From Aquabacterium sp. (GTDB lineage: Bacteria > Pseudomonadota > Gammaproteobacteria > Burkholderiales > Burkholderiaceae_C): a stretch of 34,979 nt of DNA. The translations under genes were made by a program, and so were the position numbers. The stretch lies in contig JACPOH010000171.1 of NCBI GenBank assembly GCA_016185075.1, positions 1 to 34,979 of the forward strand, in the 5' to 3' direction. This document shows, one piece after another, positions 707 through 34,734 of the stretch; position 1 is the first letter of the stretch; each line of letters opens with the position of its first letter. A model generated the notes under the pieces. The model was not told the origin of the DNA. It saw only the letters and a program-made list of their open reading frames with translations, and did no database searches.

Positions 707-712
707 TGGCAC

Positions 713-729
713 GCCTGGCCGGGCCAGGC
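713..729. terminator. GC-rich hairpin between convergent genes
   Basis: A perfect 7-bp stem (GCCTGGC / GCCAGGC) with a CGG loop lies in the 36-base gap between the convergent stops of the SMC-like gene and the M4 protease gene. There is no T tract on either side, so it would be a weak intrinsic terminator in both directions. The assignment rests on position and symmetry only. Confidence 0.35.
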
Positions 730-742
730 GCCACCATCACGA

Positions 743-2365: not shown

Positions 2366-2708
2366 ACATAACCCTTTTCGACTACATTGGCCACCCCTCC
2401 AATCGGGCAGCCAACACAGGCGGCCATGGTAGGGATCCAGCGCGTTGCCGCCATTCGGTAAGCCCCCCTGCTCCGTCTCCCTAGAAGACAGGGCGAAATG
2501 TCATCGCGTTGACATCCCCATGCCGGTGGGCTCGCTATAAGTCAGACAGGGGCCACCGCCCATTCGGCTTCGGTCGTGATGCAAATCACGCCAACTAACC
2601 TGAAATGACTAGGTGCTTGCCCGAAAACGTCCAGCGCCCGACAAAGCCACGACAGCCGTCGCCAGACACTCGCGCACCAACTTGATCAAAGTCGTTCCGG
2701 AGTTGTCG
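2366..2708. other. Divergent intergenic region (343 bases)
   Basis: This is the shared upstream region of the M4 protease (minus) and the metallohydrolase operon (plus). I see a TTGACA at 2509-2514 and a TATAAG at 2536-2541, but the 21-base spacer is too long for a confident sigma-70 promoter. A 16-base palindrome resembling a CRP/FNR-family site is at 2575-2590 and is listed separately. An open frame runs into the metallohydrolase from 2613, but it lacks a good ribosome binding site and its N-terminus does not resemble a signal peptide. No other gene is seen. Confidence 0.6.
2575..2590. promoter_or_regulatory. Candidate CRP/FNR-family operator
   Basis: CGTGAT-GCAA-ATCACG is a perfect inverted repeat containing GTGA-N6-TCAC, the core of CRP-type sites. 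It lies between the divergent M4 protease and metallohydrolase genes, about 120 bases before the latter's start. Which gene it controls, and which regulator binds, cannot be told from the sequence. Confidence 0.45.
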
Positions 2709-4961: not shown

Positions 4962-5620
4962 TGAACGGCATGTGCTTGTCCAGGCGCTCAGCCCTGGCGG
5001 CTTTGCTGCTGGGGCTGACGATGGGGGCCGCGCAGGCCGCCCCCGAGCCCTACGCCCTGAAATGGGCTGAACTCCAGCCCGATGCGCCTGCACTGCGCCA
5101 GACGCTGGTGGCCATGAGCCCGGCCCAGAAGGAGCGCCTGATGCGCGCCCTGCAGCAACGCGAGTTGCAGCGCCAGCTCGACACGGGGCGCCTCAGCACC
5201 GACGCCCTCCCCGCGACACAGGCTGCACTCATGCAGGAGGACCTGCGAGACCTGGCCCCCTTGCTCAAGGACATCACCGCGTTCGAGGCGCGTCGATCCA
5301 GGGAGATGAACCCGGCCAGGCAGGACCAGCTCGTCTCCTTGCGCGGCTACCTGCTGCCCATGCGCATGAAAGACAACAAGGTCACCGAGTTCCTGCTGGT
5401 GCCCACAGCCGGGGCCTGCATCCACGCGCCGCCGCCACCCATCAACCAGATGGTGGTGGTGAGCTATCCCGCAGGCTGGCCCCTGGGGGACCTGGCCGAC
5501 CCCGTCACCGTGGCGGGCAAGCTGAGCATAGGCCGAACGCGCGCCAGGCTCGCGCTGTCTGACGGGACCAGTGACGTTGAAGCCGGCTACACGCTGGCCG
5601 CCGACCTCGTCCGCCCCTGA
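4961..5620 (+). CDS. DUF3299-family exported protein
   Basis: This 219-residue protein has an N-terminal signal (about residues 1-26, ending AQA) that contains SRRSALAALLLG. That motif may direct it to Tat or Sec. A Gln/Arg/Leu-rich helical segment follows. The DUF3299 core starts near residue 120 with SLRGYLLP and continues to EFLLVP, then CIHAPPPPINQMV near 146-158. This Cys-His-Pro-rich motif is the family hallmark. The biochemical role is not established. Genes of this family are often found beside MacB/LolCDE-like ABC exporters, as here, where it starts inside the stop of the metallohydrolase gene and ends 2 bases before the ATPase. It is probably a periplasmic partner of the transporter, possibly in metal handling; that is inference. 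Confidence 0.75.
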   Translation: MNGMCLSRRSALAALLLGLTMGAAQAAPEPYALKWAELQPDAPALRQTLVAMSPAQKERLMRALQQRELQRQLDTGRLSTDALPATQAALMQEDLRDLAPLLKDITAFEARRSREMNPARQDQLVSLRGYLLPMRMKDNKVTEFLLVPTAGACIHAPPPPINQMVVVSYPAGWPLGDLADPVTVAGKLSIGRTRARLALSDGTSDVEAGYTLAADLVRP

Positions 5621-5622
5621 CC

Positions 5623-6309
5623 ATGCGAACCGACAGGCCTGCACCTTTGGTGGAACTCAGCTCGCTTCGCCACACCTGGCCGGGGCAGGCCGCCCCCACG
5701 CTGGACATCCCACAACTGCACATCGCCCCCGGTGAGCGCGTCTTCCTGCATGGCCCCAGCGGTTGCGGCAAGAGCACCCTGCTCTCCCTGATCACGGGCA
5801 TGCGCCCGGCCCAGAGCGGGCGGGTCAGCGTGCTGGGGCAGGACCTCGGCGCACTCAGCCCCGCACAACGCGATCGCTTCCGCGCAGACCACATCGGCTA
5901 CGTCTTTCAGCAATTCAACCTGCTGCCTTACCTGTCCGTGCTGGACAACGTGACCCTGTCTGCCCGCTTCTCTGCCCTGCGCCGTCAACGCGCTCGCACA
6001 TCGCCACAGCACACCAGCGCCCTGCTGACCCGCCTGGGCCTGAGCGAGTTGCAAACGCGCCCCGTGCACAGCCTGTCGGTGGGACAACAGCAGCGCGTGG
6101 CCCTGGCCCGCGCGCTCATGGGCCATCCCGAGCTGATCGTGGCCGACGAACCGACCTCCGCCCTGGATGACGACCATCGGGATGCTTTCATGGCCCTGCT
6201 GATCCAATGCGCCGAAGCCCAGGGTGCCAGCGTGCTGATGGTCAGCCACGACGACGCGCTGGCCCGGCACTTTCACCGCCAGATCAGCCTGGCCCGCCCC
6301 CATGCTTGA
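5623..6309 (+). CDS. ABC transporter ATPase, LolD/MacB type
   Basis: This 228-residue nucleotide-binding subunit has all motifs intact: Walker A GPSGCGKST with K50, Q-loop VFQQFNLLPYLSV, signature LSVGQQQRVALARAL (SVGQQ in place of SGGQ, within the normal LolD range), Walker B IVADEPTSALD with D175 and catalytic E176, and H-loop MVSHDD with H209. The DEPTSALD and QQFNLLP forms are typical of the MacB/LolD/FtsE class, which drive mechanotransmission rather than classical import. It starts 2 bases after the DUF3299 stop and overlaps the permease start by 8 bases, so the three are certainly one transcription unit. Confidence 0.9.
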   Translation: MRTDRPAPLVELSSLRHTWPGQAAPTLDIPQLHIAPGERVFLHGPSGCGKSTLLSLITGMRPAQSGRVSVLGQDLGALSPAQRDRFRADHIGYVFQQFNLLPYLSVLDNVTLSARFSALRRQRARTSPQHTSALLTRLGLSELQTRPVHSLSVGQQQRVALARALMGHPELIVADEPTSALDDDHRDAFMALLIQCAEAQGASVLMVSHDDALARHFHRQISLARPHA

Positions 6310-7573
6310 GATGGCGCTGGCCAGCCTGCTCAGCCGCCGCCTGACCGTGGCCCTGAGCACCTTGACGGTGGCACTGGCCACCCTGCTGCTGCTCGGGGTC
6401 GAGCGCGTGCGCACCGAAACGCGCACCAGCTTTGCCCAGACCATCAGCGGCACCGACCTCATCGTCGGCCCGCGCACGGGCGGCATGCAACTGCTGCTGA
6501 CCAGCGTCTTCCACATCGGCAACGGCCCGGACTCGGGGGTGAGTTGGGCCAGCTATGAACGCTGGGGGCAAGATGCCCGCGTGGCCTGGCGCGTGCCCAT
6601 CGCGCTGGGCGACAGCCACCAGGGCTTCACCGTGGTCGGCACCACACCCGGCTATTTCACCCACCTGCGTTACGGCGAGGGACAAGCCCTGCGCATGGCC
6701 CAGGGGGCCTCTTTCCAGCAGGCCCACGACGTGGTGCTGGGTGCGCAGGTCGCGCGCCAGTTGGGCTACCGCCTGGGCGACAAGCTGACCCTGAGCCATG
6801 GCGCAGCCCGGGCACACCATGACGGCGACGAGGCCCCACACGAGGATGAACACGATCACGCCCAGCACCCCTTCGTGGTGACGGGCATCCTGGCGCCCAC
6901 CGGCACACCCATCGACCGAACCCTGCACGTCAGCCTCGATGCCCTGACCCGCATCCACGAAGGCTGGGAATCCGGCAGCGCCTCCCTGCTGGCGCAGACG
7001 GGCGTGCTGGCCGCCGCGCAAGACACCGCCACCGCGCCCCCCACACGCATCAGCGCCTTTCTCGTCGGCCTGCATCAACCCACCGCCATCCTGGGCTACC
7101 AGCGCGCGGTCAACCAGTTCCAGGGCGAGGCCCTGCAAGCGGTCATGCCCGGCGTCGCCCTGGCCGAGTTGTGGCAACTCATGGCCCTGGCCGAACAGGC
7201 CTTGCGGGTGCTGTCTGGCTTCGTCATGTTGATGGGCCTGCTGGGCATGCTGGCCGCCCTGCTCACGGGCCTGAACGAACGCCGCCAGGAAATGGCCATC
7301 CTGCGTGCCGTCGGCGCACAACCCAGGCACATCGCGGCCTTGCTCATGGGCGAGACCACCACGCTCGTCTCACTGGGGATCGCCTGTGGCCTGGCCGGCC
7401 TGTACGCCTGCATCCTGACGCTGGCACCCTGGCTGCGCAGCAGCTACGGGCTGGACCTGCCCGTGCGTGCCCCGACACCGACCGAGTGGCAACTCATGGG
7501 CGGCACGCTGATCGCCGGCGCCTTGATCGGCCTGCTGCCAGCCTGGCGTGCCTGCCGCCTGACCAGCCCATAG
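6302..7573 (+). CDS. ABC transporter permease, FtsX/MacB-like, with His-rich periplasmic segment
   Basis: This 423-residue permease has the MacB/LolCE topology: one transmembrane helix at about 14-34, a large periplasmic domain (about 40-285), then three helices at about 296-322, 340-370 and 395-415. The sequence ALLTGLNERRQEMAILRAVGA is the FtsX-domain coupling motif between the second and third helices. Within the periplasmic domain, residues 166-189 hold seven His and six Asp/Glu residues, including HEDEHDH, which looks like a metal-binding loop and is not part of the usual MacB fold. The start codon overlaps the ATPase stop (ATGCTTGA). With DUF3299 and the ATPase it forms a likely homodimeric exporter or extractor. 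Zinc or another metal is a reasonable guess; the substrate is not shown. Confidence 0.85.
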   Translation: MLEMALASLLSRRLTVALSTLTVALATLLLLGVERVRTETRTSFAQTISGTDLIVGPRTGGMQLLLTSVFHIGNGPDSGVSWASYERWGQDARVAWRVPIALGDSHQGFTVVGTTPGYFTHLRYGEGQALRMAQGASFQQAHDVVLGAQVARQLGYRLGDKLTLSHGAARAHHDGDEAPHEDEHDHAQHPFVVTGILAPTGTPIDRTLHVSLDALTRIHEGWESGSASLLAQTGVLAAAQDTATAPPTRISAFLVGLHQPTAILGYQRAVNQFQGEALQAVMPGVALAELWQLMALAEQALRVLSGFVMLMGLLGMLAALLTGLNERRQEMAILRAVGAQPRHIAALLMGETTTLVSLGIACGLAGLYACILTLAPWLRSSYGLDLPVRAPTPTEWQLMGGTLIAGALIGLLPAWRACRLTSP

Positions 7574-7751
7574 GCCCGAAGGCGGCATCGAGGGCATGAA
7601 AACGCGGGCCAGCGCGGCTGGCGCACCCAACACACCGAACACACCCAAACGGCCAAACATTAACTTTGTCGGCCAAACGACGACTCGGGATTACCCGACG
7701 CGCATTACACGCCAAGCGTCATCGCCTTGACACTTTCACCCCCCTTGGCTT

Positions 7752-9240: not shown

Positions 9241-9732
9241 TCAGTGACGCCGCCGACGGCTGGCCACCAGGCCCATCACACCCAGGCCGGCCAGGGCCAG
9301 GGCCAGGGACTCGGGTTCGGGCACGGCCGGCGTCGCGTACAGGCTGCCCAGGTAGGCATGGCCGCCCTTGGGGAAGATGCCTTCCACAGTCAGCGTGTGC
9401 GTGCCAGCCGCCAGGCCACTGAAGCTGAAGCCATAGCCGGTCGGCGTGCTGGCCAGCGTCAGGGCATTGCCATCGATCAGCACCGAGCTGAACGAGACCG
9501 TCCCGAAGAACGTGCCCACGGAGCCAATCACATCGCTCTTGATGGCCAGGTCAAAGAAGAAATCGTTGCTGAAGACCCCGCCGGCGGCTTTGCCGGTGGA
9601 CAGCAGATTGCCATACAGCGCAGGGGTAGGCGACAAGACGCCCAGGCTGTCATCGGGGTACGCCGCCACGCCCGCCGACGCCGCACCCGCCATCAGCACC
9701 GATGCCGCCGCAAGAACCACGTTCAGTTTCAT
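9241..9732 (-). CDS. PEP-CTERM sorting-domain protein
   Basis: This 163-residue exported protein has a signal peptide at 1-20 (ending ASA) and a small beta-rich middle of unknown function. Residues 137-163 are a PEP-CTERM anchor: VPEPESLALALAG, a hydrophobic helix and the basic tail SRRRRH. Such tails are recognised by exosortase and an Arg-rich end is normal. The FFFDLAIKSDV segment resembles repeats seen in FxDxF-type PEP-CTERM proteins, but this is a weak match. No exosortase or exopolysaccharide gene is in the window. A strong Shine-Dalgarno AGGAGG lies 5 bases before the ATG. It is probably a cell-surface or matrix protein. Confidence 0.85.
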   Translation of the reverse strand: MKLNVVLAAASVLMAGAASAGVAAYPDDSLGVLSPTPALYGNLLSTGKAAGGVFSNDFFFDLAIKSDVIGSVGTFFGTVSFSSVLIDGNALTLASTPTGYGFSFSGLAAGTHTLTVEGIFPKGGHAYLGSLYATPAVPEPESLALALAGLGVMGLVASRRRRH

Positions 9733-13744: not shown

Positions 13745-14895
13745 ATGAACAAACACTGCCGCGCACGCTGAGCGTCGAGTTGCGGCTGCAACAACCCGGG
13801 CTGGACATCCGCGCACAGTTCCGCGTTCCGCCGGGCAAAGTGTGCGCCCTGGTCGGGCGAGCAGGCTCAGGCAAGAGCGCCTTGCTCAAGGCGACGGCTG
13901 GCCTGATGCCATCCAAGGGAGGCCGCATCGCCCTGGGCACGGATGCCGTGTACGACTCGGCCTCCCGCGTCAACAAGCCACCGCATGAACGCCGCATCAC
14001 CTGGCTGGACGGGCACACGCACCTGTTTCCGCATCTCAATGTGAAGGCCAATCTGCAGTACGGCATCAAAGGCCTGGGCATCACCCGCAAGGCGCCCGAG
14101 TTCGACAAGGTGGTGAGCTGGCTGGACCTGTCCTCGCTGCTGAACCGCCGCCCCGAGGCCCTGACGGTCAGCCAGCGCGTCAGGGTGGCCCTGGGCCGCG
14201 CCCTGATCTCCGGCCCCAATGCCCTGCTGCTGGACGACCCGCTTGGCGAAGTGCCCACGCATGAGCAGGAAGCCCTGCTGGAGCTGCTGGCCGAGGTGCC
14301 CGAGCGCTTCAAGCTGCCCATGGTGCTGGTGAGCCCGCGCATGAACGAGGTCATCCGCCTGGCAGACGAGGTGGTCATCCTGCACGAAGGCCGCATGGCC
14401 AGCGCCGGCCCGGCCGCGCAGATCCTGTCCGACGTGTCCTTGTCCACCTTCCTGGAGGGCGTGCATGCAGGCAGCGTGCTGGAGGGTGAAGTCAAGCGCC
14501 ATGACATCGACTGGCTGCTCAGCGAGGTGGACGTATCCGGCCAGCGCGTGACGGTACCCGCCACGCTGCACCCCGTGGGCAGCAAGGTGCGCCTGAAGGT
14601 GCGTGCCCGCGACATCACGCTGCACCGCGCCGAGCCCACGGACACCAGTTGCAGCAACCACCTGCGCGGCCGCATCACCCAGATCATGCTGGCGGGCGAA
14701 CACGGTACCTACGGCGCCGTCGGCATGGAGCTGGACCGCGCGCTGGATGCCGCCGACAGTTCGCAGCTCAAGCCCGGCGCGCCCATCTGGGCGCTGCTCA
14801 CACGCAAGTCCATCCAGAAGATGGGCTGGGCCCCCGGGCAACCGGTGGTGCTGGGCTTCAAGGCCATGGCCACCACGGTGTCAGCCTGGCGCTGA
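13741..14895 (+). CDS. ModC-like ABC ATPase with degenerate catalytic motifs
   Basis: This 384-residue protein has the ModC layout: nucleotide-binding domain 1-235 and a C-terminal MOP/TOBE-like region (about 245-380). Walker A is intact (GRAGSGKSA, K45). The other motifs are changed. The Q-loop Gln is Asp (TWLDGHTHLFPH, D90). The LSGGQ signature is LTVSQR (141-146). Walker B is ALLLDDPLGEV, with D166 where the catalytic Glu belongs and the SALD D-loop replaced by GEVP. The switch His is Pro (LVSPRM, P199). Flanking sequence (LFPHLNVKANLQYG, LADEVVILHEGRM) is otherwise typical ModC, so this is not misreading or frameshift. It may bind ATP without normal hydrolysis. The start at 13741 overlaps the permease stop. 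Confidence 0.85.
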   Translation: MNEQTLPRTLSVELRLQQPGLDIRAQFRVPPGKVCALVGRAGSGKSALLKATAGLMPSKGGRIALGTDAVYDSASRVNKPPHERRITWLDGHTHLFPHLNVKANLQYGIKGLGITRKAPEFDKVVSWLDLSSLLNRRPEALTVSQRVRVALGRALISGPNALLLDDPLGEVPTHEQEALLELLAEVPERFKLPMVLVSPRMNEVIRLADEVVILHEGRMASAGPAAQILSDVSLSTFLEGVHAGSVLEGEVKRHDIDWLLSEVDVSGQRVTVPATLHPVGSKVRLKVRARDITLHRAEPTDTSCSNHLRGRITQIMLAGEHGTYGAVGMELDRALDAADSSQLKPGAPIWALLTRKSIQKMGWAPGQPVVLGFKAMATTVSAWR

Positions 14896-14973
14896 CGCGG
14901 TGATCGGGGTGGCGGCATACTGGCAAGCCACTTTCTGTCACCCTCCTTGCGCATCCCTGCCCCCGGCCCTGCC

Positions 14974-16957: not shown

Positions 16958-17874
16958 GATGGGGCTCCTGCATTGACGATGCCGGCGGCCACATGCCCCG
17001 ATGGCACATGGGGCGCGGCGTTTTCGACATGACCGGTCTGGTCATCGAAGAAGAAATCGGGCTCGAACTCGCGCAGGAACTCGCCCTTGGGCAAGCCGCC
17101 CAGGAACAAGGCTTCGTGCACGTCGATGCCCCAGTCCATCAGCGTGCGAATGGCACGCTCGTGCGCCGGCGCCCCGCGTGCCGTGACCAGGGCTGTGCGG
17201 ATGCGCATGGCGGTTTCACCCTGGGCAGGGTCACGCTGCTGCAGCTCGTGCAAGGCCATCAGCAAGGGCTTGAACGGCCCGCCCTGCAGAGGTTGCTCGG
17301 CCATGGCCACCTCGTGCGCATGGAAGGCATCCAGGCCGCCTTTCTGGAACACCCGCTCGGCCTCATCCGAGAACAACACGGCGTCACCGTCAAAGGCAAT
17401 GCGCACTTCGTTCGGGTGCGCGTCCCCGGCCCGCGCGGCATGCGGCAAGACACGGGCAGCGGGCACCCCCGCGGCCAGCGCCGAGCGCACATCGTTTTCG
17501 TTGGCCGACAGGAACAGATGCGCCTGCAGCGGCCGCAGGTAGCGCCAGGGGCTTTGCCCACGCGTGAACACACCGCGCTCGATGGGCAGGCCGTAATGCT
17601 TGGCCGAGCGGAACACCCGCATGCCCGACACCGGGTCGTTGCGCGACAGGATCACCACTTCGACGCGGGCGTGATCCGGCGTGTTGAAGGCCAGCAGCTT
17701 GCGCACCAGCGAGAAGGCCACACCCGGCTTGGCAGGCTCGTCGACCTTGTCGAGTTGCAGCTTCATGTAAGCGCGGTCGTCCTCACCCTCGAACAGGCGG
17801 TTCTCTTCTTCGAAATCGAACAGGGCGCGCGACGAGATCGCAACGACCAGACGTCCGGACAGGCTGGCTGGCAT
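16954..17874 (-). CDS. 5'-nucleotidase, cytosolic NT5C1-like
   Basis: This protein has 306 residues from the ATG at 17874. Motifs match the bacterial relatives of cytosolic 5'-nucleotidase I: LVVAISSRALFDFEEENRLF at the N-terminus (in place of the DxD of other HAD enzymes), VVILSRNDPVSGMRVFRS, LFLSANENDV, the RIAFDGDAVLFSDE acid motif, and a C-terminal FFFDDQTGHV. HAD-like hydrolases of this group release phosphate from nucleoside monophosphates. An in-frame ATG at 17934 adds 20 residues and cannot be excluded. The stop overlaps the small downstream gene. The divergent alpha/beta hydrolase starts 244 bases away. Confidence 0.85.
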   Translation of the reverse strand: MPASLSGRLVVAISSRALFDFEEENRLFEGEDDRAYMKLQLDKVDEPAKPGVAFSLVRKLLAFNTPDHARVEVVILSRNDPVSGMRVFRSAKHYGLPIERGVFTRGQSPWRYLRPLQAHLFLSANENDVRSALAAGVPAARVLPHAARAGDAHPNEVRIAFDGDAVLFSDEAERVFQKGGLDAFHAHEVAMAEQPLQGGPFKPLLMALHELQQRDPAQGETAMRIRTALVTARGAPAHERAIRTLMDWGIDVHEALFLGGLPKGEFLREFEPDFFFDDQTGHVENAAPHVPSGHVAAGIVNAGAPS

Positions 17875-17992
17875 GAATGACAAAGCCTTCACAGGGTGTG
17901 CACAAGGCTGCGAGTTTAGTGGCGAGCCACCCATGCCCTCATGCAGATCGCATCAGAGAGGACGGGTAACAAAGTGCAATGCCCGTTGCGCA

Positions 17993-18010
17993 AGTGATAT
18001 GCGCATCACT
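17993..18010. promoter_or_regulatory. Candidate operator upstream of the alpha/beta hydrolase
   Basis: AGTGAT-ATGCGC-ATCACT has perfect 6-base inverted arms around a 6-base centre, about 110 bases before the hydrolase start and between divergent genes. The core reads GTGA-N8-TCAC, two bases wider than a CRP site. The binding protein is unknown. Confidence 0.35.
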
Positions 18011-18118
18011 ATTATTCGGACAAACGCACAGCGGCACGAGATCCAGGGAGACCCCACAAGGAGCGACGACCCCATCACGGGTGATCGGTACGCCATCAAC
18101 GCAACGAGAGGACATCGC

Positions 18119-19672
18119 ATGAAAAAGGCATTGGGCGCACTCGCCCTGCTGCTCGCCACCGGCGCACACGCCGCACCAGAGGTTTTGCTGGAACCCGGCC
18201 CGCCCGGAGAGCCCGACAAGACCTTGAACTTCGCCTACGCGGTCAAAGCCACCAGCACCCCGTTTCGCTGGACGGTGCGCATCAAGTCGACGGAATTCAA
18301 CGGCATCACACCCGGCTCGCTGGTCATTCGGGATGTGGCCAACAACCTCAGCCGGACGATCGCGCTGAGCAGCGGGAGCTTCATCGACAAGGTCGTGCAC
18401 GTTTGCACCTTCCGTATCGGCACAACCTGCTACTACACCAGCCCCGTCAACTACAAGTTCGCGTCCGGGGTGACCTCCTTCACGCCCACACGCGACTCGC
18501 AAACCTACAGCGCCAGCTTCAGCTACACCCCTTCCGGCGGCACGCTGACCACCGCATCGGCCAGCACCCAGACCGTCGGCGGGCTGGACCGCTACTGCGG
18601 CGGCACCGGCTATGACCAGGGCATGTTGCGTTCGGTCCCCACGGGCACGCCGCCTGCAGGCGGATGGCCAGCCGTGGTCCTGATCCATGGTGGCTTCTGG
18701 CGAGACCGCTCCCCCAAGGACATGATCACCTATGCCAACGAATTGAAGAACGCGGGCTACTACGTCATCAACATCGACTATCGCCTCACGCCCTTCACGG
18801 GTCGCTTCAACGAGGTGTTCAACTTCACCCACCCCACCATCGAATGGCCAGAATTCAAAGCCCAGAACACCCTTGACACACTCAAGGTGGTCGAGAACGA
18901 CACGATGAATGCCACGGGCACACATCTGCGAAACACGGTCTCGGACGTCAAGTGTGCGGTGCGCTATCTGCGCAGCCAGGCGGCCACCCTGTCCATCAAC
19001 CCCGACAAGATCGCCCTGATGGGCTTCTCTGCGGGTGCGCACCTGTCGATGTTGGCGGGCCTGACTTCTGACGGCCCCGTCGCCGACTGGGAGAACAAGG
19101 GCGGCTATTCAGGCGTCTCGCCTGCCGTCAAGGCCATCGTCTCGATCTCCGGCCCATCCGGGCGCTTCGCCGAGCTCTACAACAAGTTCTCAACCGAGCT
19201 GGTGTGCGACTTCCGCGCCGCATTCGGCATGAGCCGAGGCACCTGCTACGAAAACGGCAGCATCCCTGCGCTGACGTCGGCAGAAGCAGATGCCTTCAAG
19301 ATGTATGAGCCGATCAACTCGAGCTACGTCGGCAAGCCCATCAACGCCGGCATGCCCTTGTTGATGCTGCAAGGCGCCAAGGACCCCTTGCTGACGGTGC
19401 TGGATACCCCCAGCAGCCCCAACAGCATGGTGACGGCCATGGTCACCGCCATGAACAACGCCGCCACAGCTGCAGGCAAGGCGGGCAACGCCTACGGCAA
19501 GATCTACGACAACGGCACACACGATGACTTCAACGGGGGCGGCTTCTGCTCGGCAGAAGCCTCGGCCGCCGCGATGGCCTTCCTGAACGCCTATGTCAAG
19601 GGCACGGGCAGCGCCAGCGAGGTGCAGGCCTTTGCCAACGCCCTGGCCGCGCAGTCCAGCACCTGCAACTGA
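18119..19672 (+). CDS. Exported alpha/beta hydrolase (esterase/lipase-like)
   Basis: This 517-residue protein runs from the ATG at 18119, which places a clean signal peptide (MKKALG..., cut after HAA near residue 17) at the N-terminus with GAGAGGA about 8 bases before it. Residues 20-150 form a beta-sandwich-like N-terminal domain with no recognised family. The catalytic alpha/beta-hydrolase domain follows: HGGFW oxyanion-hole motif at H190, nucleophile S304 in GFSAGAH, acid D422 in GAKDPLL, and H468 in GTHDDF. The pattern resembles carboxylesterases of the BD-FAE/hormone-sensitive-lipase type. Several Cys residues fit an exported protein. It is a likely candidate for type II secretion; the substrate is unknown. 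Confidence 0.85.
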   Translation: MKKALGALALLLATGAHAAPEVLLEPGPPGEPDKTLNFAYAVKATSTPFRWTVRIKSTEFNGITPGSLVIRDVANNLSRTIALSSGSFIDKVVHVCTFRIGTTCYYTSPVNYKFASGVTSFTPTRDSQTYSASFSYTPSGGTLTTASASTQTVGGLDRYCGGTGYDQGMLRSVPTGTPPAGGWPAVVLIHGGFWRDRSPKDMITYANELKNAGYYVINIDYRLTPFTGRFNEVFNFTHPTIEWPEFKAQNTLDTLKVVENDTMNATGTHLRNTVSDVKCAVRYLRSQAATLSINPDKIALMGFSAGAHLSMLAGLTSDGPVADWENKGGYSGVSPAVKAIVSISGPSGRFAELYNKFSTELVCDFRAAFGMSRGTCYENGSIPALTSAEADAFKMYEPINSSYVGKPINAGMPLLMLQGAKDPLLTVLDTPSSPNSMVTAMVTAMNNAATAAGKAGNAYGKIYDNGTHDDFNGGGFCSAEASAAAMAFLNAYVKGTGSASEVQAFANALAAQSSTCN

Positions 19673-25998: not shown

Positions 25999-28260
25999 TT
26001 ACTTGCTGCCCGCGGCCGCAGCAGGCTCCTGGCCCGAGGTCTGCGGCGCCAGCTTGGGCGCGAAACCCGAGCTCGACGGCATCACCACGGTGGGAGCTGG
26101 CGCATTGGGGTCATCCAGCGGCTGGCGCACAGAGGGCATGCTCAGCTTGTTGCTCAGCTTGAGCGGGTCCAGCTCCGGCGTATCGTTGATGGGCAAGACC
26201 GTGCTCTTTTCAGGAATCATGTTGACCTGGCGCTGGCGCATGTACTCGTAGCGGTCCATCGTCAGGTTGTTGCTGTCGTCCTGCGTGCGCATCACAGCTG
26301 GCCGCAGGAAGACCATCAGGTTCTTCTTGCTGCGCTCTCGCGAGCGGCTCTTGAACAGGTTGCCGAGCACAGGGATGTCGCCCAACAGCGGCACCTTGCT
26401 GTCGCCATCGCCATAGGAGTCCGACAACAAGCCGCCCAGCACCAGCGTCTGGCCGTCATCGACCACCACGGTGGTTTCGATGGTGCTCTTGTTGGTCGTC
26501 AGGCCATTGGGCGAGGACTTGCTGGACGGATCGACGTCCGACTTCTCCTGGAACACCGTCATGCGCACGGTACCGCCTTCGCCCACCTGCGGGCGCACGC
26601 GCAGCACCAGGCCCACGTCCTTGCGCTCGACCGTGGTGAAGGGGTTCACCGAGCCACTGCTGGAGGTCGCACCGTTGGTGTACGAGCCGGTCACGAAGGG
26701 CACGTTCTGGCCCACCACGATCTTGGCCTCTTCATTGTCCAGCGCGATCAGATTGGGCTTGGACAACACGTTGGCGCCGGTGTTCTGCTCCAGGAAGCTG
26801 GCCAGGGCGCCCAGGTTGTAGGTGCCTTCCGAGTTCTTGTGCAGCAGACCGATGTTGAACCCGGTGAGGCTCTGTACCGCCGATTTCGTGGTCACGCTGA
26901 ACAGCCCCGGCACGGTGCCATTGGCCAGGTTGGTGCCCGCACCAATGACATTGGTGGAACCGGCCGCACCCGCCCACTGGAAGCCCACCTGAGCGAGCTT
27001 GCTTTCGTCCACCTGGACGATCATGGCCTCAATGTAGATCTGCGCACGGCGCCCATCCAGCTGATCGATGACCGCGCGCAATTGCTTGTACAGCGAATCG
27101 GTGGCCGTGATGATCAGCGAGTTGGTCGACGGATCAGCCTGGATGAAGCCGCCTGTCGACGGTTGGGCCGAGGCACCAACCGGCGCCGTCGATTGCGCGG
27201 ACGCCCCCCCTGCCGCGCCCGGCATGCCAGCACCCGTGCCCGAGTTGGGCAAACCGCTGCCACCCGAGCCGGCCGAGCCGCCCGCCCCACCGGTGGAGCC
27301 CCCCGCCCCCGGGAAGGCCGCACGCAGCACCTGCGCCAGCTTCACCGCATCCGCGTTCTTCAGGTAGACCACGTGGATGCCACTGCCCCCCAGGCCCGAG
27401 GTACCCGGGCGATCCAGTCGCTGGATCAGGTTGCGCACCAGCGCCATGCGGGCCGCATTGGGCGCCCGCACCATGAGCGTGTTGGTCCGGGCATCAGACA
27501 GCACCATGGTGCTCTGGCCACCCCCTGGCGCACCAGGTGCGCCAGCAGCCGCTCCCCCACCGTCGGCCAGCTTCTGCACCACCGGCGCCAGGTCGGAGGC
27601 AATCGCGTATTGCAGCGGGATGGCCTCCATGTCCGTGGCGGTGGGCACATCCAGCGCCGCGATCATCTGCCCGATGCGCTTGAGGTTGTCCGCGTAGTCG
27701 GTGATGACCAGGGTGTTGGTCGACGCGTTGGCGTTGATCGTGTTGTTCGGGCTGATCAAGGGGCGCAGCACGGTCACCAGGTTGTTGGCGCTTTCATACT
27801 GCACGCGGAAGATCTGCGTGATCACCTGGTCACCCGATTGCTTGACGGCACCCACGTCCACCGTGCCCGTCTGCAGCTTGGCTTCGGCTTCTGGCACGAC
27901 CTTGAGCAAGCCAGCCACTTCCACCAGGCTGAAGCCTTGACCACGCAAGGCAGCCAGGAAGTTCAGGTAAGCCTCGCGCGGCGTCAGCGGTTGATCGCTG
28001 TACAGCGTGATGGCCCCTTTGACACGGGGGTCAACCAGAATCTGGCGGTTGATGATCGCGGCCATCGCGCGCGCCACGCCTTCGATCTCGGCGTTCACGA
28101 AGTTCAGCGTGACCGTGGGCGCCGACGCGGCCTTGCGCGCGGCGGGCGGCGCAGCCAGCGCCAGACCGACCGGCAGCAAGCCACCAGGCCCGAAGGTCAA
28201 TGCCAGGGCCACGGCCAGTGCGCCAGCACGGGGTCGAGTCAGCAGGGGATGGGTCTTCAT
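25999..28260 (-). CDS. gspD: Type II secretion outer-membrane secretin GspD
   Basis: This 753-residue secretin has a signal peptide of about 35 residues (cut near LALAAP), an N0 domain, then repeated N1-N3 ring domains (NTLVITDYADN; RTNTLMVRAPN; NSLIITATDS). The C-terminal beta-barrel secretin domain carries QVGFQWAG, NVLSKPNLIALDNEEAKI, VGQNVPFVTGSY and VPLLGDIPVLGNLFK. A Gly/Ala/Ser-rich stretch at about 313-370 sits within the N3 region, where secretins have a flexible loop; here it is long. The C-terminus (about 690-753) is Pro/Ser-rich and may be a pilotin-binding S-like end. It begins 3 bases after the gspN stop. Confidence 0.95.
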   Translation of the reverse strand: MKTHPLLTRPRAGALAVALALTFGPGGLLPVGLALAAPPAARKAASAPTVTLNFVNAEIEGVARAMAAIINRQILVDPRVKGAITLYSDQPLTPREAYLNFLAALRGQGFSLVEVAGLLKVVPEAEAKLQTGTVDVGAVKQSGDQVITQIFRVQYESANNLVTVLRPLISPNNTINANASTNTLVITDYADNLKRIGQMIAALDVPTATDMEAIPLQYAIASDLAPVVQKLADGGGAAAGAPGAPGGGQSTMVLSDARTNTLMVRAPNAARMALVRNLIQRLDRPGTSGLGGSGIHVVYLKNADAVKLAQVLRAAFPGAGGSTGGAGGSAGSGGSGLPNSGTGAGMPGAAGGASAQSTAPVGASAQPSTGGFIQADPSTNSLIITATDSLYKQLRAVIDQLDGRRAQIYIEAMIVQVDESKLAQVGFQWAGAAGSTNVIGAGTNLANGTVPGLFSVTTKSAVQSLTGFNIGLLHKNSEGTYNLGALASFLEQNTGANVLSKPNLIALDNEEAKIVVGQNVPFVTGSYTNGATSSSGSVNPFTTVERKDVGLVLRVRPQVGEGGTVRMTVFQEKSDVDPSSKSSPNGLTTNKSTIETTVVVDDGQTLVLGGLLSDSYGDGDSKVPLLGDIPVLGNLFKSRSRERSKKNLMVFLRPAVMRTQDDSNNLTMDRYEYMRQRQVNMIPEKSTVLPINDTPELDPLKLSNKLSMPSVRQPLDDPNAPAPTVVMPSSSGFAPKLAPQTSGQEPAAAAGSK

Positions 28261-28263
28261 GAC

Positions 28264-29190
28264 TTATCCGATCGAAATGACAGAACGGTCGCCCTCGCGG
28301 CGGCCGATGATGTTCAACAAATTGTCCAGCGCGCCGCGTTCGGCCTCACTGGCGCGGGCTTCGCCACGAAAGCGCATCCCGCTGGTGCTCACGCCCCCTT
28401 GGCCAGACAGCTGCAAGGCGCCGTCCAGCGTGGTCAATTGCATCTGCAGCAGGCCTTGGGCATCGCCGTTGAGATTGAGCCGATACGAGCCCAGCCGGTC
28501 CAGCGTGGTCACACGTGATGCCACGTTTTCAAGCAGCAGGTCGGCCTGGCCTTCGATGCGCAGGCGCCCTTGCGCCCATTCGAATGACAGGTCGCGGCTG
28601 GACAGGCGCAAGGCACCCGCCAGTTGCAGGGTGTTCCAAGGGGTGCCCAGCCCGCCCAGCCAGGCGGCAGGCCAGTGCCCGATCTCGCCGGCCGTTTGCA
28701 AGGCACCGGCCGCATCGCCCGGTGCCTGCATGCGCACCTCGGTCTTGACGCGGCCCAAACCAAGTGCCACCTGCATCACCACGGGCGACGGGATGCAGCA
28801 ATCTTGCTGCAAGGTCAGGCGCAAACCCAGGCCGCTCACACGCATCGTCCAGTTCAGCCGGCCCGGCAAGGCCCGCGCGTCGCGGCTGCCAGGCCCGCCC
28901 GTGAGCACCACCACGGCGTCACCGTGCCAGATGGTGCCTTGCGACTCGGCCAGCAGCAAGCGCTTGCCCGACAACTCGACCACACCTTGTGCCAGCCAGC
29001 TGGCCGGTGCATACACCACCAGGCCGACCAGCGTGCCCAGACCGGCACCCCACCAGCCCCAGCGACGGCCCGCCTTGCGCATGTTCTCCCAGCGCGCGAT
29101 CTCCATCGTGGACTCGAGCCAGCGCGTGGTCAAGGCGCCCGCCCCCTGCATCCACGCAGGGCGACGGTTCAGAAAAGGGATACCGGCCAT
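28264..29190 (-). CDS. gspN: Type II secretion protein GspN
   Basis: This 308-residue bitopic protein has a short cytoplasmic N-terminus rich in Arg and Trp, one membrane helix at about 45-64 (GAGLGTLVGLVVYAPASWLA) and a periplasmic domain rich in beta strands, with LLLAESQGTIWHGDAVV and GRLNWTMR as typical GspN motifs. The start at 29190, 16 bases after the gspM stop, is used. An ATG at 29082 would give a shorter protein starting closer to the helix and is an alternative. GspN is an accessory inner-membrane component present in some T2SS. No lesion is seen. Confidence 0.85.
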   Translation of the reverse strand: MAGIPFLNRRPAWMQGAGALTTRWLESTMEIARWENMRKAGRRWGWWGAGLGTLVGLVVYAPASWLAQGVVELSGKRLLLAESQGTIWHGDAVVVLTGGPGSRDARALPGRLNWTMRVSGLGLRLTLQQDCCIPSPVVMQVALGLGRVKTEVRMQAPGDAAGALQTAGEIGHWPAAWLGGLGTPWNTLQLAGALRLSSRDLSFEWAQGRLRIEGQADLLLENVASRVTTLDRLGSYRLNLNGDAQGLLQMQLTTLDGALQLSGQGGVSTSGMRFRGEARASEAERGALDNLLNIIGRREGDRSVISIG

Positions 29191-29206
29191 GTGCGTGCGC
29201 CCGGCC

Positions 29207-29725
29207 TCAGCGGCCGCCCCCCGCGCCTGGCCCCATGGCCAGGACGATGTTGCCGGAGTACACACCAGGCTCGACCTGCATCAGGCCGGCCTCGGTGGGT
29301 TTGGCGCGTGCGGCGCCACGGGCCTCATCCAGCCAGGTCGCCAGGGCGTCACCCGACACGCGATTGAGCGTGAGCGTGGCCCGGTCACCTTGCAGATTGA
29401 GCTTGGCCCCTGCACCCAGCCGCTCCGTGGCCGAACGCAAGGCCGCCTCGGATTGAGCCGGCGGCACCGGCGGGCGTTGGCGCAGCATCTGCGCTTCGTC
29501 AGCCAGCCGGCGCATCTGGTCCAGCTGGGCATCGAGCTCACGCAATTGGGCTGGCGTCTCGGACAAGGTGCGCAAGGCCGGGCGAATGCCCACGAGCACC
29601 AACAGCGTCAGCGCGAGCAGCCAGGCGGCCACCGTGGCCATCTGTCGCTCGCGCGGCGCCAGCGCGGCCCATTTGGCCTGCAGCTCCTGGCGCAGCGCTT
29701 GAAGGGAAGAAGCTTGAGAACTCAT
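29207..29725 (-). CDS. gspM: Type II secretion protein GspM
   Basis: This 172-residue bitopic inner-membrane protein has a cytoplasmic N-terminus with LAPRERQM, the standard GspM/PilO-like lead-in, then a helix at about 30-48 (TVAAWLLALTLLVLVGI). A periplasmic coiled coil (TLSETPAQLRELDAQLDQMRRLADE) and a ferredoxin-like domain (about 95-165) follow. It binds GspL in the inner-membrane platform. It begins 21 bases after the gspL stop and is intact. Confidence 0.92.
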   Translation of the reverse strand: MSSQASSLQALRQELQAKWAALAPRERQMATVAAWLLALTLLVLVGIRPALRTLSETPAQLRELDAQLDQMRRLADEAQMLRQRPPVPPAQSEAALRSATERLGAGAKLNLQGDRATLTLNRVSGDALATWLDEARGAARAKPTEAGLMQVEPGVYSGNIVLAMGPGAGGGR

Positions 29726-29746: not shown

Positions 29747-31012
29747 TCAGCCATTGGCGCGCCGCACTGTCAGGCGCCCATCGGCCGTCTCGACCTGCAC
29801 ACCCGCAGCACCCAGCTTGCGGCGGAATTCGTCCAGCTCGGCCGGCCCCCAGGACGCGGGCGGCATCAAGGTCAGGGAGGCGCCGTCGTACTGCAAACCG
29901 GCGGTGGGCTGCTCCAGGGGCCAGGCACTGGCCACGGCCGCCATCAGCGCCTCCAGGTCATTGCCGCCCGCTTGCCCCGCCTGGGCACGCAAGGCTTCGG
30001 TTTCGCGACGCATCTGGGCGGGCGCGTCCAGCACAGCCTGCACCTGCGGGTGCGCCTGCTTGAGCAACTGCACCATGGTGGCACGCTTGGTCTTGACCAG
30101 CTGCGATTGCTGCCAGGCCCAGAGGTTGAGCCCCAGCACCTGCGCACCGACCAGGGCCATCAGCCCCATGCGGGCAGGCCGCCATTGCGGGCTCATGAAA
30201 CGCCGCCACTGGTCGCTCAAGGCATACAGGCCCTTGCTGCGCGGGGTCAGTTCGAACTGAAGCAGGTTCCAGATGGAGCGTGCCGCCAGCAGCAGGTGCT
30301 CGGGCTGGCTCTGAACCGTCACGGCCCGGCCCAGCCAGCGCTCGGCCGGCGAGGCCACAGGTGGCGTGGCAAAGAAGCGCGCATTGATGGGCAGCGGGTC
30401 GGGCAGCAAGGCGCGCGACAGGCTGCCCGCCACGGGCCAGGTGGCCACGCCGTCCGGGGTGGACCAGGTCAGCAGCATCTCGGAGCCGGGCTCGGCACCT
30501 TCGGGCGCACCGGCTTCACCGAATTCGTGAAAGTAGGCCGAGGGTGGCTCGTCTGGCGCCACGCTGGGTACCACCCGCTCCACGCGGATCTTGGCCTTTT
30601 CCAGCGCCATCAACTGGCTGGTCAGCCAGGTGTGGTCGCACGCGGCGATCCAGGTGGGCTGACCCGCCTTGGCCATCGGGGCCACGGCCAGATGCATGTT
30701 GTCCGGGTCATCCAGCAGGGCCTCTTCCAGCATGCTGGCCAGCGCAGCGCGCAAGCGGGCCGCGGGCGCCTTGGGCAGATTCAGGCGGTGCCAGCTCAGA
30801 TCGGTCGGGGCCATCACCGCAACGACACTGTCTGCACGAGGCAGCATGGGCGCGGTGCAACGCCCCTGCCGCGTGGCGGACATGCCATCGACGCTGAGCA
30901 CGTAGCTGTACTCCTTCGACCCGGGCGACGCAGGCGCAGCCCCGGCCTCCGACGCGGCCGCGTCGGTGCTCAGGCGCGTGCGCGCCGGCAATTGAATGAT
31001 GAGAATGCTCAT
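29747..31012 (-). CDS. gspL: Type II secretion protein GspL
   Basis: This 421-residue protein has an actin-like cytoplasmic domain (about 1-260; VVAVMAPTDLSWHRLNLP and EEALLDDPDNMHLAV are typical), one membrane helix at about 277-298 (ARMGLMALVGAQVLGLNLW), and a periplasmic ferredoxin-like domain reached through a coiled coil. It recruits GspE to the membrane and pairs with GspM. Unlike the rest of the operon it is separated from the upstream gene by 124 bases and no strong ribosome binding site is seen, so the start at 31012 is likely but not certain. It appears intact. Confidence 0.92.
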   Translation of the reverse strand: MSILIIQLPARTRLSTDAAASEAGAAPASPGSKEYSYVLSVDGMSATRQGRCTAPMLPRADSVVAVMAPTDLSWHRLNLPKAPAARLRAALASMLEEALLDDPDNMHLAVAPMAKAGQPTWIAACDHTWLTSQLMALEKAKIRVERVVPSVAPDEPPSAYFHEFGEAGAPEGAEPGSEMLLTWSTPDGVATWPVAGSLSRALLPDPLPINARFFATPPVASPAERWLGRAVTVQSQPEHLLLAARSIWNLLQFELTPRSKGLYALSDQWRRFMSPQWRPARMGLMALVGAQVLGLNLWAWQQSQLVKTKRATMVQLLKQAHPQVQAVLDAPAQMRRETEALRAQAGQAGGNDLEALMAAVASAWPLEQPTAGLQYDGASLTLMPPASWGPAELDEFRRKLGAAGVQVETADGRLTVRRANG

Positions 31013-31136: not shown

Positions 31137-32098
31137 TCATGGGGGCGTCACCCCCTCGGCGCCACGGTCCATGCCCGAAAAACGCGACTGCTGTAGCACC
31201 TGCACGTCAGAGCCACCGGGCTGGCGCTGCACAAGGTGACGCTGCTCGATGATGTTGTCCTCGTAACGCAGGCGGCCCTTGACTTCAAAAAATTCGGATT
31301 CAACTGTCAGACGGCTGGTATCCCATTGCGGCTGGGCCTGGCCCAACACATCGATGAAATCCCCCGGCAGCGCCTTGAACGGCTTGCGCTGCCTCGCCTG
31401 CACCAGACGGGCGGCCCTCGCCAGGTCAAGGCCATCGACCATGGCGGCAATCACTTCCTTGGGGGCCGTGTTGATGTTGACCATGGTGGCGGCTGTAGGC
31501 AACAAGGTGACATAAGGCCGCAGTTTTTCCAGTGTGCCGGCATCCAGCCCCAACCACAACAACTGGTCAAAGCTCTGCGGCATCAAGGGGGCCTGGGCGC
31601 GCCCCGCCTCGCCGCCCAGTTTCTCCAGCACGGCCGGGTCCGAACTGACAAACGAGGCCTCGGCCAAAGCGGCCTTGGTCATCGAGGCCGCGATGCCGTC
31701 CGCCAGCGAAGGCGGCAGGCTCACGAACTCCAGCAAACGCTTGAACACCTTGACCTCGGCCGCGTTGGTCGTCACGCCGTCCACCAGGTGGCGCAGGTTG
31801 TACTTGGCGTGCGCGTCGTCCACCTTGCCCGACAGGAAGGCCTCGGGCGCATCGTCCGAATCCGAGGCACTGTTGTTGGCGTCAGCAGCCAGGAAGGTCG
31901 ACAGCCGGGCCTCGGCCAGCGGCATGGCCCACACCTCGCCCAGGTGGTCCACCTTCTCGTTCTTGCCGTCTTCGCGCAGACCAGCGTCACGATGACCATG
32001 GCCATCAACAAGGCCGCGCCCCGCTGGGCCGCCCGGCCGGCCAGAAAAGGCGTTGTGCGCGAGGGGAGCCGATTCTGAATGAGGGTCCGACACGCCAT
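31137..32098 (-). pseudogene. gspK: gspK with internal deletion and frameshift
   Basis: GspK is the large minor pseudopilin capping the T2SS pseudopilus. Translation from the ATG at 32098 (GGAG 6 bases upstream, 2 bases after the gspJ stop) gives a correct start: a basic leader, then QRGAALLMAMVIVTLV, a prepilin-peptidase site and half a helix. At about 31975-31984 the reading goes out of frame (CAKTARTRR). The genuine GspK body continues in another frame (LREDGKNEKVDHLGEVWAMPLAEARLS) to the stop at 31137. By comparison with ordinary GspK, about 40 residues are missing at the junction: the second half of the helix and the neck. The downstream frame can also be read from a GTG at 32093, but that product has neither leader nor helix. 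Either a real deletion or a sequence error explains this. Confidence 0.85.
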
Positions 32099-32100
32099 GA

Positions 32101-32808
32101 TCAGCTCCCTTGCAACTGGGGCGCCAGCATGACGTCCCGTGTCAGCGTACCGGCAAAGCCACTGCCCTCACCCAAGGTCATCTGGCAACGCACGGCATTG
32201 GGCAAGGCCTGCCGCAGCGGAGCGGCACCAGCGGCGCCCGTTGCCCCACCGACAGGCGTCGCCGTCCTGACGGCGTCACCGGTTGACTGGCAGCTGCTCA
32301 TCGAGCCCCCCCGGAAGCAGTACACCTGCCAGCGCTCGACGCCTTTCAGGGCGGTCAAGGTGCCCGGCTCGCGCCCCTGCAGCTGGTAGGAACTCAACCA
32401 ATAGCGCTGCAGCTCGCCCACCTTCGTGGTCACCGGGCTGGCCCAGCGCAGCAGGCGGTTGCGTTGCACATACCAGGTCACCACCTGCATGCCTTCGCCA
32501 CTGCGGCGGGTCAGGCGCAGGTGCGCGCCATCGAACTGCATGCCGTCCACGATCTGCGTGTCCATGATCTGCCCCATGTCCGCCTCGAACTGCGTCACGA
32601 CAGACTGCAGACGCAATGTCTGCTTGAGGTTGCCATCGGCCACCTGGCGGGCTGTGCTGATGCTGTCCATGCCCTTCCAGGCCGTGGCCGAGAGCACCGC
32701 CAGGATCAGCAAGGACACCAGCACCTCGATGAGCGTGAAGCCGCGCGGCGCACGCACGGGCGCACCCGCAAGGGGTGAACGGCGAGGCTGGTAGGTGGAA
32801 GAGGTCAT
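32101..32808 (-). CDS. gspJ: Type II secretion minor pseudopilin GspJ
   Basis: This 235-residue minor pseudopilin has a leader of about 22 residues ending PRG, then FTLIEVLVSLLILAVLSATAW, the conserved prepilin site with Glu at +5. The C-terminal globular domain includes QFEADMGQI and WYVQRNRLLRW. Two Cys residues (YCFRGG and SSCQ) may form a disulfide. GspJ assembles with GspI and GspK at the pseudopilus tip. The start overlaps the gspI stop by one base (TGATG). Confidence 0.93.
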   Translation of the reverse strand: MTSSTYQPRRSPLAGAPVRAPRGFTLIEVLVSLLILAVLSATAWKGMDSISTARQVADGNLKQTLRLQSVVTQFEADMGQIMDTQIVDGMQFDGAHLRLTRRSGEGMQVVTWYVQRNRLLRWASPVTTKVGELQRYWLSSYQLQGREPGTLTALKGVERWQVYCFRGGSMSSCQSTGDAVRTATPVGGATGAAGAAPLRQALPNAVRCQMTLGEGSGFAGTLTRDVMLAPQLQGS

Positions 32809-33182
32809 CAGAAGCGCGGCAACACCGTGGACAACTTGACGATAGGCTGCTGGGCTTCGTCCATCACCTGCGCATCCACACGCCTGAAATTGAGGTTGGG
32901 CGTCGGGCGAACGGTCATGTGGCCAGGGAAGGTCCGGCCCAATTGCTGGCAGCTGAAGTCGCTGTCGCCAACGGGCGGATAGATCTTGGCCAGCTTGAGC
33001 GAGGTGATCTGGTTTTCAGCGCACCATTGGGCCAGCGTCAGGTCGCTCATGCGCTGCGCGTTGAGCGTCAGGCCGCCTGCCGCCTTGATACCGGCCGACA
33101 GCGTGATGGCCACGATGGCCAGGGCCACCAGAACCTCGATCAGGGTCATGCCAGAACTGGGGCGATCAGCGTGCTGGCGCAT
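32808..33182 (-). CDS. gspI: Type II secretion minor pseudopilin GspI
   Basis: This 124-residue pseudopilin has a short leader MRQHADRPSSG, then MTLIEVLVALAIVAITLSAG: the prepilin site has Met at +1 and Glu at +5, as in GspI. The motif QWCAENQI (the LA-x-W-x-A-x-N hallmark of GspI) follows. The start at 33182 overlaps the end of gspH by 17 bases. An AGGAGG 6 bases before it, inside gspH, supports this start over the internal Met at the cleavage site. Confidence 0.93.
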   Translation of the reverse strand: MRQHADRPSSGMTLIEVLVALAIVAITLSAGIKAAGGLTLNAQRMSDLTLAQWCAENQITSLKLAKIYPPVGDSDFSCQQLGRTFPGHMTVRPTPNLNFRRVDAQVMDEAQQPIVKLSTVLPRF

Positions 33183-33687
33183 TCGCCACCTCCTGCCCGG
33201 CGCCAGCCACAGCGTCTTCTTCGGCCTCGTTGCCGGTGATCACGGCAAACGGGCTCAGGCCATCCGTGCCCACAATGATCTGTTTGTCTTCCACGCGCAG
33301 GATGACGCTTTGCGCCCCGATCACCGGCTCGGGCCCCAGCACGATGCTGCGCGCCCCGGCGACTTCGGCCTTGGTGTCCGACTCCAGCCATTTGAGCGGG
33401 GGCATCAAGGCGGGCGGCAAGCCCAGGAACTGGTAGTCGGCCTCGGGGCCATTGGGCTGCGGCACCCACAGCACCGTCATGGCTCCGGCGCGCGCCTGTG
33501 TGCGGGCCGATTCAAGCAGGGCGATGAGCCGTGCGGCCTCGCGCTCCAGGCGGGTCGAAGACGGGTCGGGAATGGCAAAGGCGACCACCGCCGTGGTGAT
33601 CGCGATCATGGCCACGACCACCATCAGCTCCAGCAAGGTGAAGCCGCGCGCGCGGCGGGCCTTACTGCCAGGAGCCGATATCGGCAT
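33166..33687 (-). CDS. gspH: Type II secretion minor pseudopilin GspH
   Basis: This protein has 173 residues from the ATG at 33687, which overlaps the end of gspG by 26 bases and has GAAGG 5 bases upstream. The leader MPISAPGSKARRARG is followed by FTLLELMVVVAMIAI with Glu at +5. The conserved EREAARLIALLESARTQA helix and a beta-rich C-terminal domain match GspH. A longer in-frame start at 33735 lies further into gspG and lacks support. It is intact. Confidence 0.9.
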   Translation of the reverse strand: MPISAPGSKARRARGFTLLELMVVVAMIAITTAVVAFAIPDPSSTRLEREAARLIALLESARTQARAGAMTVLWVPQPNGPEADYQFLGLPPALMPPLKWLESDTKAEVAGARSIVLGPEPVIGAQSVILRVEDKQIIVGTDGLSPFAVITGNEAEEDAVAGAGQEVANAPAR

Positions 33688-34120
33688 CGCGGCCTTCGCC
33701 ACCGGCCTGGCCATCCGCACCGAAGCTGAACACATCCACAGGCCCCTTCACACCGGGGTTCACATACTGGTAGGCGTGGCCCCAGGGGTCACTGGGCAGC
33801 TTTTCAAGATAGGGCTTCCAGTTGGGCGGGACGGGCGAAGCCGTGGGCTTGGTCACCAGCGCCTGCAGGCCTTGCTCGGCGGTCGGGAAGCGCTGGTTGT
33901 CGAGCTTGTACAACTTGAGGGCCTGCATCAGGTTGCTGACGTCGGTCTTGGCTGCGGTCACGCGGGCGTCATCGGCACGGTCGAGCACGTTCGGCACGAT
34001 CAGGGCAGCCAGCAAACCGATGATCACCAGCACGACCATCAGTTCGATCAGCGTGAAGCCACGCTGCACGGCTTGAACGGCCTCCCGGGCCCGCTGAGGG
34101 GTACGCGCAAACATCTTCAT
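33662..34120 (-). CDS. gspG: Type II secretion major pseudopilin GspG
   Basis: This 152-residue major subunit of the pseudopilus has a leader of about 19 residues ending QRG, then FTLIELMVVLVIIGLLAALIVP. The GspG-specific body includes AAKTDVSNLMQALKLYKLDN, PTAEQGLQALV and DPWGHAYQYVNPG. The calcium-site region FGADGQAGGEGRDADIGSW is at the end, with the conserved Asp residues present. Three in-frame Met codons are close together; 34120 has the best spaced ribosome binding site (GGA about 8 bases upstream), 34126 is an alternative. It is the first gene of the minus-strand operon. Confidence 0.93.
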   Translation of the reverse strand: MKMFARTPQRAREAVQAVQRGFTLIELMVVLVIIGLLAALIVPNVLDRADDARVTAAKTDVSNLMQALKLYKLDNQRFPTAEQGLQALVTKPTASPVPPNWKPYLEKLPSDPWGHAYQYVNPGVKGPVDVFSFGADGQAGGEGRDADIGSWQ

Positions 34121-34300
34121 GTTCATTTCCAAAACAATCTTTTCAATCAGACACCGAAACCGACACCTTGGTTCCGCACGGTGCTGCGAGGGCGCAAGCA
34201 TGCACGAGGACCCGGTCGCCCTGATGCGGGATGAACCCGAGGTTCAAAGGCCACTTTTGAGGGCCACGGTGCATCGAACACCCATCATAATGGCCGGATC

Positions 34301-34734
34301 ATGGCATCACGCTGGACCAGTCCGCCGCTTCGGCGCTGGCAAGCCGGATCAAGCTGCTGGGCGTGGTGGCGCCGCGTCAGGAGGGCGACACCGGTGGCGT
34401 GGCCCTGCTGTCCATCGATGGCAAGCCACCCAAGGCGTTCCGCATCGGCGCCACGATCGAAGGTGATCTGGTGCTCAAGTCCTTGACGCAACGTGGTGCA
34501 GCCATCGGCACGGCGGATGGCCCTGCCACCACCCTGGATCTGCCCTTGTTGCCGCCCCCACCCACGGGCGCCCTGCCCCCGGTCAGTGGGTTCAGCACCA
34601 CGGGCAGCGACTTGACCCACGCCCCTGGCGGCGTGCCGCCACCGCCTGCCGGCGGCATGCCGGGCGCGGTGGGTCGCCTGAGCACCCCGGAAGGCATACC
34701 GGGCGGCATGCCGCCCCCCGGCGTGTCCCGCTGA
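34301..34734 (+). pseudogene. gspC: gspC, 5' region deleted and frameshifted
   Basis: GspC links the inner-membrane platform to GspD through its HR domain. In one frame an HR domain is clear: ASRIKLLGVVAP, GVALLSIDGKPPKAFRIGATIEGDLVLKSL, then a Pro/Gly-rich tail to the stop at 34734. That frame has no ATG before it and a stop at 34288-34290. In another frame an ATG at 34301 begins MASRWTS, a plausible GspC N-terminus, but then reads nonsense (PPLRRWQAG) to a stop at 34486. The expected cytoplasmic tail, membrane helix and linker, about 50-60 residues, are absent between about 34318 and 34335. No hydrophobic helix is encoded upstream in any plus-strand frame. The gene is divergent from gspG and convergent with ilvA. 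Confidence 0.78.

Follow-up and report, generated by a model that had tools for sequence, protein, structure and literature searches.

The type II secretion gene gspK is split between two reading frames in the window (the whole stretch of Aquabacterium sp. DNA analysed here, 34,979 nucleotides), and the gap in it is in all likelihood a defect of the assembly, not biology, an assignment that draws on the likeness between the gspK join and other joins in the same draft genome. Similar blunt losses occur elsewhere in the draft, one of them in the only rpsG detected, which makes an assembly defect the better account. In the organism itself, both gspK, at full length, and the type II secretion system (T2SS) are most likely ordinary. 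The window is the whole of contig C174 of a draft (G000) of 3,357,698 bases in 411 contigs, with a completeness of 81.63% and a contamination estimate of 2.86%; the 411 contigs and the 81.6% completeness indicate that the genome was most likely assembled from a metagenome. The nearest relative found by gspK is the Aquabacterium sp. MAG NC_groundwater_871 (G003; contig NZ_JACPYU010000010.1). Around gspK, G003 has the same gene order as the window and its gspK body protein is 89% identical, but its gspK is whole and in a single frame, unlike the split gene of the window.

The divided gspK and the surrounding gsp genes

The gene lies between gspJ and gspL in the gsp operon, the position expected of a GspK family member, and is encoded in two parts on the minus strand. 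The 5ʹ part (31980-32098, -), termed frame A, starts with an ATG at 32098 and encodes the leader, the prepilin-type cleavage region and the first half of the N-terminal helix, the GspK-like sequence reading RGAALLMAMVIVTLV. The open reading frame (ORF) containing it (31772-32098, -; 108 aa) is GspK-like through MAMVIVTLV and then leaves the family, and frame A gave no family match in the NCBIfam and Pfam profile search. The gspK body (31137-31979, -) lies without stops in a second frame, termed frame B, within an ORF spanning 31137-32093 (-). Here the GspK body starts at LREDGKNEKVDHLGE, and the frame matches the NCBIfam model T2SS_GspK (NF037980) at 175.8 bits (cut-off 130) over profile positions 57-306 of 307; it is also above the cut-off for Pfam PF03934 and PF21687. 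Each part stays open as far as the join.

The sequence-only reading had reported the GspK start and body in different frames, with the switch at about 31975-31984 and roughly 120-130 bases, or about 40 residues, absent. All of this was confirmed: the frames run from 32098 to 31980 and from 31979 to 31137 (-), the break falls at 31979/31980, and alignment to the nearest gspK, that of G003, places 124 missing bases there with 0 bases between the flanks. The edges of this blunt join share no matching base, as judged from G003. Since 124 bases equal 41 codons plus one base, their loss explains both the missing helix and the change of frame. The deletion with frameshift described in that reading is therefore real, relative to the family, in the assembled sequence, but the biological interpretation placed on it found no support.

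Comparison across the genus shows the same region to be intact. A gspK match was present in all 36 other genus genomes searched (one with an internal TAG, two partial), from which 29 loci were fetched; seven were left out, among them the internal-TAG match and one short match. In 28 of these 29 loci, the helix continues into the body unbroken and in one frame from the prepilin site, and the remaining locus (L030, from G002) is partial, with its N-terminal match on another contig. The genomes G019 and G005 also cross the missing stretch without a break. Within the draft, a DNA search with the missing segment returned only weak matches (best E 0.1), and a protein search returned the window's two gspK pieces plus five weak matches (E 0.12 and worse). 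A segment that had failed to assemble, or had been omitted, would be absent from the rest of the draft in just this way. A second gspK copy was also considered, but none was recognised among the draft's contigs; two weaker T2SSK matches, one above the cut-off on C388 and one below it on C166, fall in open frames of 876 aa and 840 aa, respectively.

These comparisons also bear on the idea of a working short or recoded GspK, in which programmed frameshifting would join the two frames and the shortened helix would function. While the openness of both parts up to the join fits such recoding, the 41 helix and neck residues present in 28 of the 29 genus loci would still be missing after the frame change, and the unrelated gene rpsG shows the same anatomy (see below), which leaves this idea next to impossible.

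The gsp genes around gspK follow the order gspG-H-I-J-K-L-M-(N)-D, and all but gspK are open on the minus strand. The genes that exceed the curated cut-off of at least one profile library are gspG (33662-34201), gspI (32808-33182), gspL (29747-31012), gspM (29207-29725) and the secretin gene gspD (25999-28260). Open frames also mark gspH (33166-33735; NCBIfam gspH 59.3 bits, below its cut-off of 80), gspJ (32101-32808; NCBIfam gspJ 41.5 bits, below its cut-off of 64.85) and gspN (28264-29265), the last assigned by place only, with no family match. Two further ORFs (25987-24560 and 24556-23318), which are 98.7% and 97.8% identical to G003, are by their place probably gspE and gspF.

The claim that all neighbours look intact proved wrong for gspC (34301-34734, +), which is divergent from the gspG-K genes and carries a blunt 178-base loss like that of gspK. 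The gspC start (MASR; 34301-34312, +) ends at a blunt join (34312-34315, +) just past the first four codons, where the window has 2 bases in place of 180 in G003 (net 178) and the frame is broken. The gspC body continues in another frame (34315-34734, +) and is identified by its place, by a matching ORF in G003 and by a T2SSC score of 21.6 bits (Pfam cut-off 27). The gspC ORF is whole in G003, and G019 runs unbroken over the loss.

Outside the gsp genes, the window encodes several proteins in stretches where it departs from G003. A thermolysin-family (M4) metalloprotease with a propeptide motif (743-2365, -) lies within the stretch 707-7663, for which G003 has no aligning sequence at this place. 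The same unaligned stretch encodes a 782-aa protein (2613-4961, +) with a Peptidase_M19 (membrane dipeptidase) match of 36.2 bits (cut-off 26). An esterase-like alpha/beta hydrolase (BD-FAE, Abhydrolase_3; 17873-19672, +) is encoded in a 1.8 kb stretch that G003 lacks there. The M4 protease and the esterase-like hydrolase are plausible type II secretion cargo. In G003 itself, a segment of about 250 bases (14644-14896 of locus L066, on its contig C15) has six matches in G019 and two in G000 and may be a small repeat element of this genus.

The gspK and gspC lesions lie within 2.4 kb of each other, and two broken T2SS genes so close together are what might be seen if recent frameshifting deletions in both gspK and gspC were real and had inactivated the organism's type II secretion system. 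Shortly after such a loss, the remaining genes would still be open and conserved, and they are. The gspK body has no stops and a dN/dS of 0.089 versus G003, and for eight other gsp genes the ratio ranges from 0.037 to 0.209, gspD having the highest. With G019 as outgroup, 14 amino-acid changes in gspK are unique to the window versus 6 to G003, a mild imbalance. Old decay of gspK was considered and left no clear sign in dN/dS or in the unique changes; a very recent lesion would look alike, so that these selection data speak against old decay only. A real deletion is nonetheless improbable, given that 28 of the 29 fetched genus loci are whole at this site and the other is partial, that similar losses on other contigs hit rpsG and rplA, and that the window encodes a thermolysin-family protease and an esterase-like protein that are, by inference, plausible cargo. 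There is accordingly a slim chance that gspK and gspC are truly broken in the population, which would mean that one Aquabacterium lineage has recently lost the type II secretion that its relatives examined here retain.

Even a real loss of GspK need not abolish secretion, as the phenotype of Pseudomonas aeruginosa xcpX (gspK) mutants indicates. In PMC6211770, these mutants kept growth on lipid agar and skim milk clearing, unlike xcpV and xcpW mutants; the same paper states that gspK deletion may influence PulA secretion in Klebsiella. The loss of the GspI-J-K tip complex that the sequence-only reading had predicted is unsupported, as the draft holds similar blunt losses elsewhere, including in the only rpsG detected.

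Blunt losses in the draft genome

An event was termed blunt when two colinear blocks were separated by at most 12 bases (or overlapped by at most 12) on one side and by 40-600 bases on the other. The sample from G000 consisted of the window and six contigs, namely C403 (20,000 of 27,077 bases), C184, C18, C399 (30,000 of 30,392), C330 and C397. The first four of these contigs were found with four 20-kb pieces (out of 18) of the G003 contig C15 and the last two through rpoB, making the choice of contigs a non-random one that left out those with only short matches.

Of the 138,228 bases given (7 contigs, 33 colinear junctions), 113,512 aligned to G003, and in these the draft had 13 blunt losses as opposed to 2 gains, so that in the contigs examined a blunt loss occurs about every 9 kb of alignment. 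The same script found 1 loss and 1 gain in the control G019 (131,021 given, 89,082 aligned) and 0 losses and 0 gains in the control G005 (40,000 given, 35,231 aligned). Losses differed from gains with p 0.007 and the draft differed from the controls with p 0.0006, the controls being more diverged from G003, which may hide blunt events. Leaving out C330 and C397 gives 11 losses and 2 gains. The 13 losses are spread over six of the seven contigs, C18 having none.

The net length of the loss is not divisible by three in 7 of the 13 (gspK, 124; gspC, 178; C403, 76 and 347; C399, 205; rplA, 293; rpsG, 217) and is a multiple of three in the other 6. Joins sharing 1-5 bases at their edges account for 6 of the 13, the gspK join sharing none. 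The missing segments are 61-73% GC, mostly at or above the 65% of the reference contig, in a list of 13 segments that partly differs from the counted set. Additionally, C184 contains a run of 56 N, which is either masked sequence or a scaffold gap; a scaffold gap here would show that some gaps had been retained.

A third genome shows on which side the bases were lost. G019 is unbroken across five of the 13 stretches (gspK, gspC, C403:1367, rplA and rpsG), so in these cases the bases were lost in G000. All five confirmed losses break or cut a gene, and none of the five lengths is a multiple of three. At three other positions (C403:2567, 2747 and 7835, one of them in repeated sequence), G019 differs as well, and these losses may be natural variation. 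The third-genome comparison did not span the remaining five (C403:11711, two on C184 and two on C399).

A scan for lesions at the protein level gave, for 86 G003 ORFs in G000, 11 split matches and, for 82 in the reverse direction, 9; the controls gave 3 with 58 and 4 with 57 (G019), and 2 with 31 and 1 with 31 (G005). Most of these split matches look like start-of-frame or shadow-frame noise, and the clear gene-internal splits in G000 number four (three on C403 and one on C399). The scan of G000 did not flag gspK or gspC, and the DNA-level count was used instead for this reason.

Lesions in rpsG and rplA

Two of the confirmed losses fall in genes for ribosomal proteins. On C397, a loss of 217 bases at about position 9716 lies inside rpsG, and the halves of the gene are in two frames around it, one reading ESSRKRSEKSMAQRLANELL, an anatomy like that of gspK. 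The rpsG model has one match in G000, which is partial (positions 104-153 of 154) and below the cut-off, while rpsG is whole in both G003 and G019. On C330, a loss of 293 bases at about position 2631 takes the last part of rplA, including the stop codon. The gspK join resembles the rpsG and rplA joins in form and size. As a further candidate lesion, rpoB was set aside, only its first 190 positions being in the draft; contig C330 ends there, so the gene was not counted.

Ribosomal protein S7 (uS7), the product of rpsG, is held to be essential to the cell. A split rpsG is hardly compatible with life, and this class of lesion is therefore best read as an assembly defect; some of the blunt joins in the draft very probably exist in no living genome. 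PMC10931766 describes uS7 as a key primary assembly protein of the small ribosomal subunit.

The same lesion weighs on a mixture of strains, in which true deletions within the population would have been taken up into a multi-strain consensus. An assembly of a mixed sample would be a consensus, and the contamination estimate is 2.86%, but a strain carrying the broken rpsG would scarcely be viable, and no other contig of this incomplete draft was found to carry an unbroken gspK segment or a second rpsG. The chance of such a mixture is very remote.

Probable collapsed gaps and the GspK family

An assembly error, which the sequence-only reading had offered as its alternative, is now the favoured account. 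Like lesions occur in genes that must be whole, and losses are in excess over both gains and controls. Counted on the other side are the 8 of 13 losses without third-genome confirmation, the 6 of 13 lengths that are multiples of three, the greater divergence of the controls, the 56 N in C184 and the 14 versus 6 changes in gspK. Under the favoured account, assembly of the draft would have omitted short stretches and put the flanking sequences directly next to each other, with hardly any overlap. This could happen if flanks were linked, for example by read pairs, while the stretch between them stayed unassembled and the gap was closed to zero. Gap collapse during contig scaffolding is a candidate step.

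It follows that gene breaks in this draft are not to be read as biology, and any other broken-gene finding from it, including gspC in the window, is equally suspect. Nothing unusual is left about the T2SS itself.

Among known systems, the split gene of the window is close to the GspK minor pseudopilin family. The body domains are present (NF037980, PF03934 and PF21687, all over their cut-offs), and as far as VTLV the N-terminal piece is like that of the relatives. In the family, however, the leader and full helix are in frame with the body, an arrangement that the assembly of the window lacks. That the organism's real gene belongs to the GspK family is not in doubt, the split being judged an assembly defect. 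Collapsed-gap errors are a known kind of error in draft metagenome assemblies, and the losses described here are like them, being short, blunt and placed in unrelated genes, one of which is held to be essential.
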